33,113 nucleotides of DNA from a virus. The stretch lies in IMG/VR virus record IMGVR_UViG_3300020595_000110, positions 1-33,113 of that record; one strand, written 5' to 3'. The notes beneath the pieces are model-generated. The model was not told where the DNA came from. It did not search any database and worked only from the letters and a program-made list of their open reading frames with translations. Shown piece after piece: positions 25,319-31,948 of the stretch. The position numbers and the translations under genes were made by a program. Every line of letters begins with the position of its first letter. Within the stretch, counting starts at the first letter, position 1.

Positions 25319-27892
25319 ATGGCAGAAAATATAATTTCACCGGGTGTATTTACAAGAGAAAACGACCTATCATTTTTACCACAAGGTATTGGACAAATTG
25401 GAGCAGCAATAATTGGACCTACAGAAAAAGGACCAGCTTTTGTCCCTACAGTAATCCGAAGAGGATTTAATGAGTATGAAGCTAGATTTGGTACTTATAG
25501 TAATGACACATATGTTCCATTAACAGTAAGAAATTACTTAAGAAATGCAGGAACTGTTACTATAGTAAGAGTACTAGGTGGTGGTGGATATACTATACAA
25601 GAAAAAGGCCTCCAAGCACTTGTTATAACAGGAAGTGGTGACTTTACAGGAAGTTCAGATTATGCAAATGTGGATGGAAAAGTATTAGCAGTACTTCATC
25701 CTTCTAAAAATGATGATGCTAAAGCAGACAAAAATACTTTTGATGTATCGGGATCAAGTATATTAGCATTTTCAGCATCTGATTCTAACCCAATTACAGC
25801 AATGGTGCCATTTAATACAAAAAGAGATGGTTTTGGAGACACATTTTGTTTAAAAATAGCGGGTGTTGGTTTCTCAGCAACAAAAGAAGTATCTGCTTCT
25901 TTAAATCCATCTTCACCTAATTATATTACAAAAGCTTTAGGAGCAGATGAAAACAATTCAAGATCAGGTTCAAATACTTATGCTGACACAGCTTACCCTT
26001 ACTTATATTTTAGAGAATATTCAACAGCTATAGACACTTTAACAACAGCATCAGCTACAGCAGCAGGATTATCTGCTTCAGTAAGTATAATACCACTACC
26101 AGAACATGTATTTACTGGAGGTACTAATAATAGTGGATTTACAGAAGGATATGATCATGCAGCTACACCAATGATTCAATCAGGATATAATGATGCTAGT
26201 GGTACTGTAACAGATTTATTTAGAGTACATAAAATTGCAGATGGTACACAAACAAACACAGATTGTAAAATTAGTATATTAAATCTTAAAGAACCTTCTG
26301 ATATAGATGGTGAAGAGCAATATAGTACATTTTCTTTACAAGTTAGAAAATTTACTGATAAAGATAAATCACCAGGAGTATTAGAACAATACGATGGTTT
26401 AAATTTAAATCCAGATAGCCCACAATATATTTCAAGAGTAATTGGGGATAGATATGCTGAATATAATACTGATTTACAAAAAGTAATTATATATGGTGAC
26501 TATCCTAACAAATCACAATATATTAGAATTGAAGTAATGTCAGATATAGATAATGGAGCTACTTCCCCTAAATTATCACCTAGAGGATTCGCAGCACCAT
26601 TAGATCCAATTGTATCTTCTAGTGCTGGTACTACAGTATCAATATTACCAGGATATGTTTCAAAATCAGAACAAACACTTAATAGTGTATATAGTAAAAA
26701 AGCATACTTAGGATTTGATTTTTCTAAATTAGATAATCATTTCTTCTGTAGACCAATCCCATCAACTACAATAGCAAATAACACAGGTAAATTTAATGTT
26801 GATGCTCATAATGGACATTCATCAGCAACATGGACAGGATCACTAAGTGCTTCAATAGATCAATCACAAGCATCAGGACCTAATGCTGATCAAGTTAAAT
26901 TTTCAGTACCATTCCAAGGTGGTTTTGATGGTATGGGACCTCATATTGTAAAAAGAACAGGAGAATTTATTACATCAACTAACTTACATGGATTAGATTT
27001 ATCTAGTTCAGGAGCTTCAGGTTCAGCAGCTTATCAAAAAGCACTTGATATATTAGAAAATCAAGATGAATATGATATTAATATGTTAGCAACTCCTGGA
27101 GTTATCCATAGATTACATTCTACAGTTACAGTAGCAGCTCAAACATTAGTAGAAGACAGAGCAGATTGTTTTTATGTAATGGATTTAACAACAAGAGATG
27201 ATAAACACACAGAAGCAGTAAGTCAAGCATCTGGAATAGATACTAATTATGCAGCTGCATATTACCCATGGGTTAAAGTATTAGATCCATCTAAAAATAA
27301 ACCAGTATTTGTACCACCTTCAGTAATTGTACCAGGAGCAATAGCTCAATCGGATAGAATTGCTGCTGAATGGTTCGCACCAGCAGGTTTAAATAGAGGA
27401 GTATTAGGAAATGTAATTGAAGCAAGAACAAGATTAAGTCAAGCTGAAAGAGATGTTTTATATGAAGGAAAAGTAAATCCAATAGCAACATTTCCAAGAA
27501 CAGGAGTTTGTATTTGGGGTCAGAAAACACTTCAAGCAAGACCAACAGCACTCGATAGAATTAACGTAAGAAGATTATTAATTGAAGTTAAGAAATTTAT
27601 TGCAAGTTCTTCAAGATACTTAGTATTTGAACAAAACACAGTACAAACAAGAAACAGATTCTTAAACATAGCAAATCCATATTTAGAGTCAATTCAACAA
27701 AGACAAGGATTATTTGCATTTAGAGTACAAATGGATGAAAGTAATAATACACCAGATGAAATAGATAGAAATAGATTGATTGGTGCTATTTATTTACAAC
27801 CAACTAGAACAGCTGAATTCATAATTTTAGACTTTAATATCTTACCAACAGGAGCTACATTTGATGGTGGAGGTGGTGGAGGAAGCTACTAA
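25319..27892 (+). CDS. 18: Tail sheath protein, T4 gp18-like
   Basis: An 857-residue contractile sheath subunit (T4 gp18: 659). The N-terminus is diagnostic: ISPGVFTRENDLSFLPQGIG, then AAIIGPTEKGPAFVPTVI and YVPLTVRNYLRNAGTVTIVRVLGGGGY. The conserved C-terminal sheath domain (about 690-845) has PAGLNRGVLGNVIEARTRLS, QAERDVLYEGKVNPIATFPR, GVCIWGQKTLQARPTALDRI and NVRRLLIEVKKFI, then RFLNIANPYLESIQQRQGLF and a Gly-rich end (GGGGGGSY). The ~200 extra residues lie in the middle (about 130-560), probably added surface domains. The leader has two promoter motifs and a hairpin, consistent with high expression. Confidence 0.96.
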   Translation: MAENIISPGVFTRENDLSFLPQGIGQIGAAIIGPTEKGPAFVPTVIRRGFNEYEARFGTYSNDTYVPLTVRNYLRNAGTVTIVRVLGGGGYTIQEKGLQALVITGSGDFTGSSDYANVDGKVLAVLHPSKNDDAKADKNTFDVSGSSILAFSASDSNPITAMVPFNTKRDGFGDTFCLKIAGVGFSATKEVSASLNPSSPNYITKALGADENNSRSGSNTYADTAYPYLYFREYSTAIDTLTTASATAAGLSASVSIIPLPEHVFTGGTNNSGFTEGYDHAATPMIQSGYNDASGTVTDLFRVHKIADGTQTNTDCKISILNLKEPSDIDGEEQYSTFSLQVRKFTDKDKSPGVLEQYDGLNLNPDSPQYISRVIGDRYAEYNTDLQKVIIYGDYPNKSQYIRIEVMSDIDNGATSPKLSPRGFAAPLDPIVSSSAGTTVSILPGYVSKSEQTLNSVYSKKAYLGFDFSKLDNHFFCRPIPSTTIANNTGKFNVDAHNGHSSATWTGSLSASIDQSQASGPNADQVKFSVPFQGGFDGMGPHIVKRTGEFITSTNLHGLDLSSSGASGSAAYQKALDILENQDEYDINMLATPGVIHRLHSTVTVAAQTLVEDRADCFYVMDLTTRDDKHTEAVSQASGIDTNYAAAYYPWVKVLDPSKNKPVFVPPSVIVPGAIAQSDRIAAEWFAPAGLNRGVLGNVIEARTRLSQAERDVLYEGKVNPIATFPRTGVCIWGQKTLQARPTALDRINVRRLLIEVKKFIASSSRYLVFEQNTVQTRNRFLNIANPYLESIQQRQGLFAFRVQMDESNNTPDEIDRNRLIGAIYLQPTRTAEFIILDFNILPTGATFDGGGGGGSY

Positions 27893-27941: not shown

Positions 27942-28427
27942 ATGGCAATATTAAATACAAACGAAATTATGTTCACAGCATTTGAACCTAAACTACAAAA
28001 TAGGTTTATAATGTATATTGATGGAATTCCAGCATTTTTAGTGAAAAAGATATCAAGACCAAATATTCAATTTGGAGAAGTAACTCTTGACCATATCAAC
28101 GTAAAAAGAAAGATTAAAGGAAAAGCAGATTGGCAAAATGTTACAGCTACTCTTTACGATCCAGTAACACCTTCAGGTGCACAAGCAGTAATGGAATGGG
28201 TTCGTTTATCACATGAGTCAGTTACAGGTAGAGATGGTTATTCTGATTTCTATAAAAAAGACATTAGATTTAACGCTTTAGGTCCTGTAGGAGATGTAGT
28301 TGAAGAATGGATCTTAAAAGGAGCTTATTGTTCACAAGCAAATTTTGGAGAAATGGATTGGGCTACAGACACACCAGTTGAAATTTCATTAACTATTAGA
28401 ATGGATTACGCCATCTTAAATTACTAA
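27942..28427 (+). CDS. 19: Tail tube protein, T4 gp19-like
   Basis: A 161-residue protein, nearly the same length as T4 gp19 (163). Landmarks are AFEPKLQNRFIMYIDGIPAF with LVKKISRPNIQFGEVTLDHI, a KRKIKGKADWQNVTATLYDP strand pair, GAQAVMEWVRLSHESVTGR, and VVEEWILKGAYCSQANFGEM with the closing VEISLTIRMDYAILNY. This is the tube subunit fold shared by gp19 and other phage tail tubes. It lies directly after the sheath gene, as in T4, and is closed by a terminator. Confidence 0.95.
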   Translation: MAILNTNEIMFTAFEPKLQNRFIMYIDGIPAFLVKKISRPNIQFGEVTLDHINVKRKIKGKADWQNVTATLYDPVTPSGAQAVMEWVRLSHESVTGRDGYSDFYKKDIRFNALGPVGDVVEEWILKGAYCSQANFGEMDWATDTPVEISLTIRMDYAILNY

Positions 28428-28534: not shown

Positions 28535-29326
28535 ATGGAACAAAATTCAACAAACCCAACAAACACATCAATTCAGTTTCCCTCAGAAGAAGTTACATTA
28601 CCTTCAAAAGGTTTACTTTATTCAGAAGGATCCCCTCTAAAAAATGGGATTATAGAAATGAAGTATATGACAGCTAGAGAAGAAGATATCTTAACAAACC
28701 AAAATTTAATAAAAAATGGTACTGTTATAGATAAATTATTACAATCTCTTATAATAACTCCTATAGATTACAATGATTTACTAATAGGAGATAAAAATGC
28801 TATATTAATTGCTTCTAGAATATTAGGATATGGTCAAGAATATAGTTTTACATATACACACCCTAATTCTGGAGAAGAGGAACAAGTAACAGTTGATTTA
28901 ACTGAAGCTGAAGATATAATACTTGATGAATCTTTGATCATGAATAATAAAAATGAATTTTCATTTACTTTACCTACATCAAAAACAGAAGTTACATTTA
29001 AACTTTTAACTCATGGTGATGAAAGACAAATAGACCAAGAAATAAAGGGATTAAAAAAGATAAGTAAATTAAGTAGTTCAGAATTAACTACTAGAATGAA
29101 AAACATGATTTTATCTGTAGATGGTGTTTATGATAAAAAAACAGTTAGAGAATTTGTAGATGGTGCTTTTTTAGCTAGAGATGCAAGAGCTTTAAGAGAA
29201 TATGCAGGTTCTATTATGCCTGATATAGATATGACATTTGATTTAGAATTTAAAGATGGGGCGAGCGCGGAGGGCGTAACCATTCCCATTGCAACATCAT
29301 TTTTTTGGCCTGAGTCAGCAGTATAG
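28535..29326 (+). CDS. 26: gp26-like (T4_baseplate family) / putative tail assembly chaperone
   Basis: A 263-residue protein. The family block is at about residues 20-110: VTLPSKGLLYSEGSPLKNGI, EMKYMTAREEDILTNQNLIK, NGTVIDKLLQSLI and GDKNAILIASRILGYGQEY, followed by TYTHPNSGEEEQVTVDLTEA. This matches the T4_baseplate (gp26, baseplate hub) family as seen in marine myoviruses. It lies between tube and tape measure, where other tailed phages encode the G/GT tail assembly chaperones. The zero-frame ending is SFFWPESAV. A T7 run at 29300-29306 could shift ribosomes into the frame at 29280-29564, giving a product of about 340 residues. Bases 29258-29276 are unusually GC-rich. Start: ATG after AAAAAGTT. 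Confidence 0.8.
   Translation: MEQNSTNPTNTSIQFPSEEVTLPSKGLLYSEGSPLKNGIIEMKYMTAREEDILTNQNLIKNGTVIDKLLQSLIITPIDYNDLLIGDKNAILIASRILGYGQEYSFTYTHPNSGEEEQVTVDLTEAEDIILDESLIMNNKNEFSFTLPTSKTEVTFKLLTHGDERQIDQEIKGLKKISKLSSSELTTRMKNMILSVDGVYDKKTVREFVDGAFLARDARALREYAGSIMPDIDMTFDLEFKDGASAEGVTIPIATSFFWPESAV
29256..29306 (+). promoter_or_regulatory. Candidate recoding site (GC-rich patch plus T7 run)
   Basis: The slippery run is T7 at 29300-29306, read TCA TTT TTT TGG in the zero frame. Moving +1 or -2 keeps full Phe-tRNA pairing and enters the downstream frame at GGC (29307). A GC-rich patch containing GCGGAGGGCG lies about 25-30 nt upstream. GGAGGG could act as an internal Shine-Dalgarno-like stimulator, though the spacing is long for that. 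Confidence 0.5.
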
Positions 29327-29564
29327 AAAACAATTTTTTACTCAAATTCATGATTTAGTTTATCATGGTAATGGAGGATTTGTCCACTCAGAAGTTTATA
29401 ATATGCCTATTTGGTTAAGAAAATTTCATATTCAATCAATTAATGATTTTCAGAAAAAACAAGAGGAAGAACATAATAAAGCTAGAGGGGAATCAAATAT
29501 AGGAGATGACAATAAAATCTTTAGACCAGGAGTAAATCCAACTAATTATAATTTTAGTAAGTAA
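29280..29564 (+). CDS. Downstream frame reached by frameshift from the gp26-like gene
   Basis: This frame opens after a TAA at 29277-29279 and overlaps the end of the gp26-like gene by 47 nt. There is no ATG until about 29403, which is already inside conserved-looking sequence (MPIWLRKFHIQSI). The only early alternative start is a TTG at 29289. Protein from the T7 run: GLSQQYRKQFFTQIHDLVYH, GNGGFVHSEVYNMPIWLRKF, then a charged, probably disordered tail. The best explanation is a fusion with the upstream frame by +1 or -2 slippage on TTT-TTT-T, as in gpG/gpGT systems. It might correspond to T4 gp51, which neighbours gp26 on the T4 map, but I cannot confirm this. An extra T in the assembly would give the same appearance. 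Confidence 0.7.
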   Translation, partial: PFPLQHHFFGLSQQYRKQFFTQIHDLVYHGNGGFVHSEVYNMPIWLRKFHIQSINDFQKKQEEEHNKARGESNIGDDNKIFRPGVNPTNYNFSK

Positions 29565-29590
29565 AAAGTGCCATAGGCACTTTTTCTTTT
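29563..29590 (+). terminator. Rho-independent terminator
   Basis: AAAAAGTGCC-ATA-GGCACTTTTT, a 10-bp stem that overlaps the stop codon and is followed by CTTTT. Confidence 0.9.
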
Positions 29591-29591
29591 C

Positions 29592-29600
29592 ATATTTATA
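29592..29600 (+). promoter_or_regulatory. Late-promoter-like motif ATATTTATA (tape measure)
   Basis: TTTTCATATTTATACGTG, directly after the terminator tract and 18 nt before the ATG at 29619. Confidence 0.58.
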
Positions 29601-29618
29601 CGTGAATAATTTTACATT

Positions 29619-31948
29619 ATGGCAAACGAAAACGAAAAAGAAAGACTAACACTAGAACAGGAATTAATCCAAATGCTCAAAAACAGACAAGTAGAGCTAC
29701 ATGGTATAATCAACGTCATAATGATATTTCTATTAATATTCAAAATGAACTTAGAGATACTCAACTTACTGTTAAAGAAAAACAAAAAATACAAAGTATA
29801 ACTAATCATTTAGTTGCACAAAATAGCAAATTAAAATTATTTTCATCAGACCAATTAGGTACTAAAGTAAAAGAAAGACAAATATTAGAACAAATAAAAA
29901 GTACTGAAGGGGCCTTAGCAGGTATTCAAAGACAAAAACTTAAAGCAAATAAATTAGAAGGAGATGCTAAAAGGGCAGCATTAAAAGACATTGAAAAACA
30001 AGAAAATGCAGCAAAAGGAGTAATAAAAACTCTACATAGACAAAGAGATGCTGCTAAAGAAATAGCAGACAATAAAATAGCAGATAGTTTTGGTAATGTA
30101 GGAAAAACACTAGAAGGAATCCCAGGATTAAATATATTTAGTGATGCTTTTGCAGGAGCAGGAAAAGCAGCAACCTTAGCAAAACAACAAACAGTAAACT
30201 TTTCTAAAGGATTTGGGGATGCATCTCAATACACTAAAGCAAATTTAGCTAAATTAGGTAAAAATGCTGAAGTTGTAGGTAAATCTGGAAAAGCCTTATT
30301 TGGATCAGCAGCCAAAAAAGCATTAGAAGCAGGAACAGCACAAGTTAAAGGAGTAAATATGACTATGCTAACTGCTAAAGCAGGTATGAAATCTTTAGCA
30401 GTATCAGTAAAAGCTATATTTGGTCCCCTAGCATTGTTAATGGCTGCTATAAAAGCAGGATTTCAATTTGATGCTGAAGTAACTAAATTACAAAAAGGAT
30501 TAGGAGTATCTAGAGGAGAAGCCAAAGGTATTAGGGATAATATGTCAGGTTTATCTAGAGAAATGAAAAATAACGCAATTAATTCTGCGGATATGCTCAA
30601 ATCTTTTAATACTTTAAATGAACAATTTGGAACAGCTGCTACTACTATGAGAGATGACATAGTTGGAGAAACAGCCAAATTAATGAAATTGACAGGTATG
30701 TCTGCACAATCAGCAGGAAATTTTGCTAAATTTTCTAATATATCTGGTAAAAATATGAAAACTGTTACTACTGAAGCTAGAAGAGCTGTAGTAGCAGCCG
30801 AAGCTGAAGGAGGGGCTAGATTAAATATAAATAAAACATTAGATGAAGCAGGTAAAATAGGAGGTCAAGTATCAGCTCAATTAGCAGGAAATCCAGCCAA
30901 AATAGCTAAAGCAGTAGCACTAGCTAAACAATTTGGTATGGAGTTAGAAAAAGTAGCAGCAGCAGGAAATCAATTGTTAAACTTTCAAGACTCTATAGGT
31001 AAAGAATTAGAAGCAGAATTATTATTAGGAAAATCACTTAATTTAGAACAAGCAAGATTAGCTGCTTTAACAGGTGATTATGAAACTTTAATTAAAGAAA
31101 TTAATAGAGAAGTAGGATCATATGCTGATTTTACTAAAATGAATGTTTTACAACAAAAAGCACTAGCAGAATCTGTGGGTATGACAGTTGATCAATTATC
31201 AGATCAACTATTAGCTAAAGCTAATTTAAATGAATTAGCAGAAGAAGCAAGACTAATGGGGGATGAAGATTTAGCTAAACAATTAGAAGCAAGATCAGCA
31301 CAAGAAAAATTTAATGATACAGTAGCTCAATTAAAACAAATATTTGTAGATTTAGTAGGTGGACCATTTGGAGATGTTTTAAATGCTATAGGAACAGCAG
31401 TAAGTGGAATGTCAGTACTTTTAGGATACGCACAAGATTTTGGTGCTTTTGTTGGAGGATGGGCTTCAGGTTTAGGAGATTTTTTAGCTGGGTTAGGACC
31501 TATAGGAAAAGCATTAAAAGGTTTAGGTATGTTAGCAGTTGTATTTGGAGCCTATAAAGCATTTTCAGCTTTAGCCTCAATACCTGTTGTAGGACCTATT
31601 TTAGGAGCGGCAGCAGCAGCAGCAGTAATAGCAGCGGGTTCAGCAGCACTAAATGGTGCTGAAACTGCTGATGATGCTACTTTTGAAGGAGGAGGATATG
31701 GAAAAAGAACATTATTAGAAGAAGGAAGAATAACCAGATTTAATGATAATGATACTATTATAGCAGGAACAAGATTAGGTAGAGCAAATGACATGATTAG
31801 TGAAGGAGCAGCTACACCACCAAGAACAACTCCAGCACCACAACCTATAATAATAGATAACACAGTAGTACACGATTCATTCCAATCATCTAATTATTAT
31901 AATGGTCCTAGAAGTAGAGAAAAAGCAAACTCAGCTATATTTGACTAA
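29619..31948 (+). CDS. Tape measure protein, frame-interrupted near the N-terminus
   Basis: The ATG at 29619 starts MANENEKERLTLEQELIQML, but this frame soon turns non-coding in character and stops at 29801. The frame 29684-31948 is open for 754 codons yet has no ATG, GTG or TTG start until 30359. Joining them at the A5 run (29679-29683) gives LIQMLKK-QTSRATWYNQRH and a 776-residue protein. It has helical, Lys/Gln-rich N-terminal sequence (QLTVKEKQKIQSITNHLVAQ), hydrophobic segments near 264-278 (AIFGPLALLMAAIKA) and about 635-680 (VVGPILGAAAAAAVIAAG), and long helices such as LNEQFGTAATTMRDD. Position after tube and chaperone-like genes, length and composition fit a tape measure (functional equivalent of T4 gp29). 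The break is either one missing A or -1 recoding; the heptamer CAAAAAC is not a standard slippery site, so I favour an indel. Confidence 0.78.

Follow-up and report, generated by a model that had tools for sequence, protein, structure and literature searches.

The window analysed here is an IMG/VR virus record of 33,113 bases (IMGVR_UViG_3300020595_000110, positions 1 to 33,113). Following a tail sheath gene (25319-27892) and, on the + strand, a gene for a gp19-like tail tube protein (27942-28427; phrog_4542, E 2e-26), a + strand gene at 28535-29326 encodes a gp26-like protein of 263 residues, the proposed short form of a tail assembly chaperone. This protein matches the T4_baseplate family (PF12322) with an E-value of 4.4e-8 and 33.5 bits against a curated cut-off of 24.5, and phrog_150 with an E-value of 9e-15. 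The tail tape measure gene, also on the + strand, lies at 29619-31948 (phrog_2854, E 5e-6). The phrog_4542 and phrog_2854 matches bear out the location between tail tube and tape measure given in a preliminary description of the sequence, which is the position of a G/GT-type gene pair. The gp26-like frame ends TCA TTT TTT TGG CCT GAG TCA GCA GTA TAG, with the stop at 29324-29326 and the putative slip site, TTT TTT T, at 29300-29306 (+). Overlapping this end in the +1 frame is a second ORF (29280-29564, +), which opens directly after a TAA at 29277-29279, the last stop in that frame ahead of the T-run; the coordinates agree with the ending and the overlap as first described. The +1 ORF continues FFGLSQQYRKQFFTQIHDLVYHG; read from the slip site (29301) it begins FFGLSQQYRK, which would give a fusion of 341 residues. 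By chance, 0.09 copies of the pattern TTTYTTTGGCC would be expected in the window, which contains one.

At window positions 29619-29809 the tape measure gene opens MANENEKERLTLEQELIQMLKN in one frame, but from about 29675 (CTC AAA AAC AGA) onwards the rest of the gene is read in the -1/+2 frame. Since the tape measure genes of close relatives run uninterrupted in a single frame from their ATG, this break has the appearance of a local indel or an error in sequencing, not of a second programmed shift. At 29565-29619, ahead of the tape measure ATG, there is a small hairpin with a T tract together with the motif TATTTATA, both of which recur there in relatives. The motif is also present 30-75 nt before three more structural genes (upstream of 22052, 25319 and 27942) and is a possible late promoter, with a total count in the window that is not above chance.

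Searching IMG/VR with the gp26-like protein as query retained 80 loci of approximately 55-72% identity, which after removal of near-copies gave 66 rows, including the window and the phages immuto and Mel-JY01. The site is present in all 66, as TTTTTTTGG in 57, TTTCTTTGG in 7 and in other forms in 2. Its first codon is always TTT, the second is TTT in 59 rows and CTT in 7, the third is TGG in 64, and the codon that follows is CCT throughout; L040, which was skipped by the search pattern, carries the site as well. With the Mel-JY01 protein as query, a further 58 non-redundant rows were obtained from a sister group, none of which comes within 95% of those in the first set, and here too the T7 is kept (TTTTTTTGG in 56, TTTTTTTAC in 2), making a combined set of 124. 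Scanning with the proteins of SP-15 and LR756508 yielded no further relatives. A homologous +1 ORF was found in every first-set row with sufficient downstream sequence, the consensus being FFGLTPEYR..LF.QIHDLVFHG.GGF....VYNMPIWLRR, and the three short +1 ORFs of the second set are shortened by the end of the contig. With site and +1 ORF recurring across both sets and in cultured phages, the overlapping-frame arrangement in the window is genuine and beyond chance. The preliminary description had made its reading depend on the T-run and overlap persisting in relatives, which they do in more than 100 non-redundant loci; the window's lineage contains neither a T6 version forming one continuous gene nor homologues split into two well-separated genes, each with its own ATG. 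The T7 is also retained in eight phage-like MAG contigs, five from Bacteroidota bins, two from unassigned bacteria and one from a Woesearchaeota bin. This binning, along with the Flavobacterium phage immuto, suggests that the host of the virus in the window belongs to the Bacteroidota.

The first TTT is invariant in the 66 rows, although TTC accounts for 13% of the Phe codons in the same genes. Where the codon before it encodes Asn, AAC and AAT occur in a ratio of 33:1 against 222:802 in the remainder of the genes, and the base preceding the T-run is T in only 1 of the 124 rows, with third positions being 40% T; the rows behind these codon and preceding-base counts are related, so that p-values assuming independence would be too strong.

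The overlapping frame had been described as lacking an ATG ahead of its conserved part. This is correct for the window, with the refinement that a TTG is present in the +1 frame at 29289, 12 nt ahead of the slip frame. Together with the ATG found in the +1 frame of some relatives, the annotation of cyanophage gp51 from an ATG just past the gp26 stop and the mostly separate DUF6760 genes of contractile injection systems, this TTG might be taken to indicate that the downstream ORF is translated independently, through re-initiation or a coupled start near the overlap. We consider this very unlikely. In 46 of the 124 rows (23/66 and 23/58) none of ATG, GTG and TTG occurs in the +1 frame from its last stop up to the site, the first internal Met of the ORF is usually residue 34, inside the conserved domain, and independent translation would leave both the invariant TTT and the avoided preceding T unexplained. 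In L030, L054 and at least eight second-set rows the +1 frame is open for just 3 nt ahead of the T-run, and a stop in the zero frame usually follows 6-8 codons past the first TTT. The start-less frames, these short openings and the nearby zero-frame stop place the shift in or next to the T-run (FRAMESHIFTING). The arrangement has the features of a G/GT-type pair that were initially ascribed to it: between the tube and tape measure genes, two ORFs in different frames overlap at a conserved slip site, and the second has only a TTG in the window and no ATG, GTG or TTG in many relatives.

On a T7 taken by itself, a +1 and a -2 shift land in the same frame and tRNA-Phe re-pairs after either, so the initial proposal of a +1 or -2 slip holds as far as both being possible; comparison with relatives favours +1. 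The variant TTT CTT TGG, seen in seven non-redundant rows including that of the cultured phage immuto, lets tRNA-Phe reach UUC from UUU by +1 and is better suited to that shift. In LR756508 the site is TTT CTA TTC (AAC TTT CTA TTC), where a +1 shift would take tRNA-Phe from UUU to UUC, and in Streptococcus phage GXN1 it is TTC TTT CGT (GAA TTC TTT CGT), where +1 again gives UUC; in both a -2 shift leaves the tRNA mispaired. The sites in Bacillus phage SP-15 (TTT TTT CAC) and Listeria phage LIS04 (TTT TTT AGT) are also compatible with +1. A -2 frameshift as in Mu-like phages, which would give SFFFG in place of SFFG, is thus unlikely, though it is the least improbable of the alternatives. The same homopolymer-breaking variants (UUU_CUU, UUU_CUA and UUC_UUU_CGU) favour +1 over slippage of RNA polymerase on the T-run to give mRNAs of mixed length. 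A T7 homopolymer in an AT-rich genome would be a plausible substrate for such slippage, but the frame relation stays where TTTCTTT, TTTCTATTC or TTCTTTC interrupts the run, and we give this possibility very little weight. Least credible of all is a sequencing or assembly error within one continuous gene. The second frame break near 29675, absent from relatives, shows that the window's sequence may contain such errors, but at the T7 an error is ruled out by the relatives and cultured phages, in that the frame relation is the same in the 124 non-redundant rows and in several cultured phages, non-homopolymer variants included.

The most convincing explanation, and in our view a very probable one, is that a programmed +1 frameshift at the T7 yields a short and a long tail assembly chaperone from the gp26-like gene of this myovirus. 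Most ribosomes would terminate at the TAG at 29324 to give the short form. What the comparisons show is that both frames and the slip site are kept, that starts are lacking and that the protein is homologous to T4 gp26 and gp51; the shift itself, its direction at the T7, its efficiency and the chaperone function are inferred. On this reading a fraction of the ribosomes would slip one base forward at TTT TTT TGG, the peptidyl-tRNA-Phe (anticodon GAA) moving from UUU to the overlapping UUU, or UUC in the variants, while the next codon is waiting. Reading would then continue GGC CTG to produce the 341-residue long form, whose C-terminal domain would resemble the one in T4 gp51. If the pair works as lambda G/GT does, the tape measure protein may be coated by the short form, and tail tube subunits may be recruited by the long form.

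A canonical -1 heptamer (X_XXY_YYZ) is absent, the new ORF being in the +1 frame and the preceding base not T. The +1 frameshift of prfB (CUU_UGA_C) is similar in that the UUU_CUU_UGG variants hold CUU_UGG_C, where the same slip on a Leu codon would be possible. It differs in that a sense codon here replaces the stop (the A-site codon of the window is TGG, Trp), and a Shine-Dalgarno-like sequence is absent from the position 3 nt upstream. In those sequences that have it, the G-rich element lies approximately 31 nt upstream of the slip site; it is strong in the window (GGAGGG, 29269-29274, +) and missing from about half of the relatives, and at codon -10 GAG is preferred (GAG:GAA 26:7 against 137:1170). 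This patch is possibly a Shine-Dalgarno-like stimulator. No conserved RNA structure of the pseudoknot-free kind was detected by RNAalifold in 63 sequences from -60 to +75, and fold z-scores were near -0.3 downstream and about -1 upstream.

The gp26-like protein and ORF2 were modelled separately. A sequence search for solved structures gave no match. The predicted model of the gp26-like protein (mean pLDDT 90.6) aligned best, of 917 realigned PDB chains, with YqbN (3klu), which we take to be a tail-chaperone relative, and the HK97 tail assembly chaperone (2ob9). Both matches are weak, with a Z-score of 5.2 against 3.2 for the next chain and an rmsd of 8.4 for the 3klu alignment. ORF2 is predicted with modest confidence to be helical and has no clear fold match. 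T4 gp26 and gp51 are listed as hub assembly chaperones (PMC3004832). The position of the gene, the short and long design, this listing and the weak fold match all point the same way, towards the gp26-like protein being a tail assembly chaperone.

In P-SSM2, S-PM2, pelagiphage HTVC008M and Sinorhizobium phage phiM12 there is a single T4_baseplate gene, the end of which is overlapped in the -1 frame by the gp51 domain (phrog_634) behind T_TTT_TTC or T_TTT_TTT. Among IMG/VR relatives of P-SSM2 gp26, T_TTT_TTC with an open -1 frame is present in 35 of 37 non-redundant sequences, the picks for the remaining two resembling a different ORF, and the jumbo phages RaK2, Atu_ph07 and RAS14 have the same -1 arrangement. 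Like the window, the Kyanoviridae phages P-SSM2 and S-PM2 have one T4_baseplate gene followed, past a T-run, by a gp51-like domain in a different frame; they differ in the frame and in the site, T_TTT_TTC. In the Kyanoviridae and jumbo relatives this -1 site is of the canonical type and sits at the homologous place. We propose that all these phages shift -1 there, although gp51, annotated in the cyanophages from an ATG of its own, may also start at that codon. Sullivan et al. noted that cyanophage gp51 is without its first ~200 residues (PMC3037559). T4 has no frameshift but separate and divergent genes for gp26 (208 residues) and gp51 (249 residues), both of which match PF12322 over its whole length, with gp51 having an additional C-terminal part. 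An hhalign comparison matches the +1 ORF family of the window to the C-terminal domain of T4-like gp51 over 54 columns with a probability of 83, and the two T4 genes correspond to short (gp26) and long fused (gp51) versions of the same protein, which fits the reading of the window's lineage as one gene with a +1 shift.

In a tree of 42 zero-frame proteins all 29 +1 rows lie on one side of a branch with support of 82/68, the -1 rows form two groups, and T4, RaK2 and RAS14 are on long branches. This fits a single switch to +1, for which the branch support is modest. We lean towards the view that +1 shifting on UUU_Y is a fixed trait of a clade of myovirus tail chaperones in phages of Bacteroidota, Cyanobacteria and Bacillota, which would have arisen once from a -1 ancestor, with the base preceding the T-run as a switch forbidding -1 and the gp26 and gp51 genes of T4 being a hard-wired remnant.

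The injection systems offer a weaker parallel. The window's +1 ORF scores 17.3 bits against DUF6760 (PF20546), below the curated cut-off of 27, and in its family 13 of 29 members match weakly at E <= 0.1, with a best value of 9.7e-6. In two Bacteroidota genomes an injection-system-like protein has both domains in a single frame, that of L122 matching T4_baseplate with an E-value of 2.5e-9 and DUF6760 with 1.5e-6, and the join is directly after ...SFF, the position of the frameshift. In other injection systems DUF6760 is a separate gene, overlapping the first or just after it. With separate genes and the two fused frames, programmed frameshifting as a rule in contractile injection systems is unsupported. 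In a single case, the Bacteroidota injection-system locus L121 (reverse strand, ~1471-1500), DUF6760 is encoded in the -1 frame relative to the ORF ahead of it, with no ATG, GTG or TTG before the conserved part, and the overlap contains GGGGGAA, a motif of tail-chaperone -1 shifts. A Deltaproteobacteria MAG contig (L118, 2962-3890) with sheath, tube, T4_baseplate-like and tape measure genes has a small ORF in the -1 frame for which a GTG start is possible.

Most described tail-chaperone frameshifts are -1, and to our knowledge bacteria and their phages have few conserved +1 sites. The lambda G/GT genes, as presented where Xu, Hendrix and Duda (2004) is cited in PMC5009743, resemble the locus in having, between tube and tape measure, overlapping frames of which the first ends shortly after a slip site, and the proposed short and long products are likewise shared; the window differs in shifting +1 on UUU_Y, not on a -1 heptamer, and in its protein belonging to the T4_baseplate family. 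The review describes G-T frameshifting as conserved among long-tailed phages except T4, and gives +1 precedents in phage tail genes: the HSTV-2 tail chaperone is "very likely +1", and Listeria PSA, A118 and A500 shift in the major tail protein on CCC_UGA (PMC5009743), slip sites that in both cases differ from that of the window. The measured +1 site of influenza A PA-X, UCC_UUU_CGU (PMC3498833), shares the UUU_CGU core with UUC_UUU_CGU of GXN1, although it is used by eukaryotic ribosomes in an unrelated gene and the window has UUU_UGG. Our literature search found no paper linking the T4_baseplate (gp26/gp51) family to a +1 frameshift. T4-like phages with separate short and long chaperone genes are already known, as the citation of Vladimirov, Gautam and Davidson 2022 (Virology 566:9) in PMC10885494 indicates; what appears to be new is the +1 clade, along with the split between +1 and -1.

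The deposited annotations of immuto, SP-15 and LIS04 omit the +1 ORF or give a short downstream ORF, indicating an unannotated or truncated ORF in these published genomes. As the +1 site is available in more than 100 natural versions, with a clear rule on the base ahead of it and with relatives that have -1 at the homologous place, the choice of direction becomes testable. The finding would also bring T4 gp26 and gp51 and cyanophage gp51 together as a single chaperone pair, to which the DUF6760 proteins of contractile injection systems would be more weakly linked.
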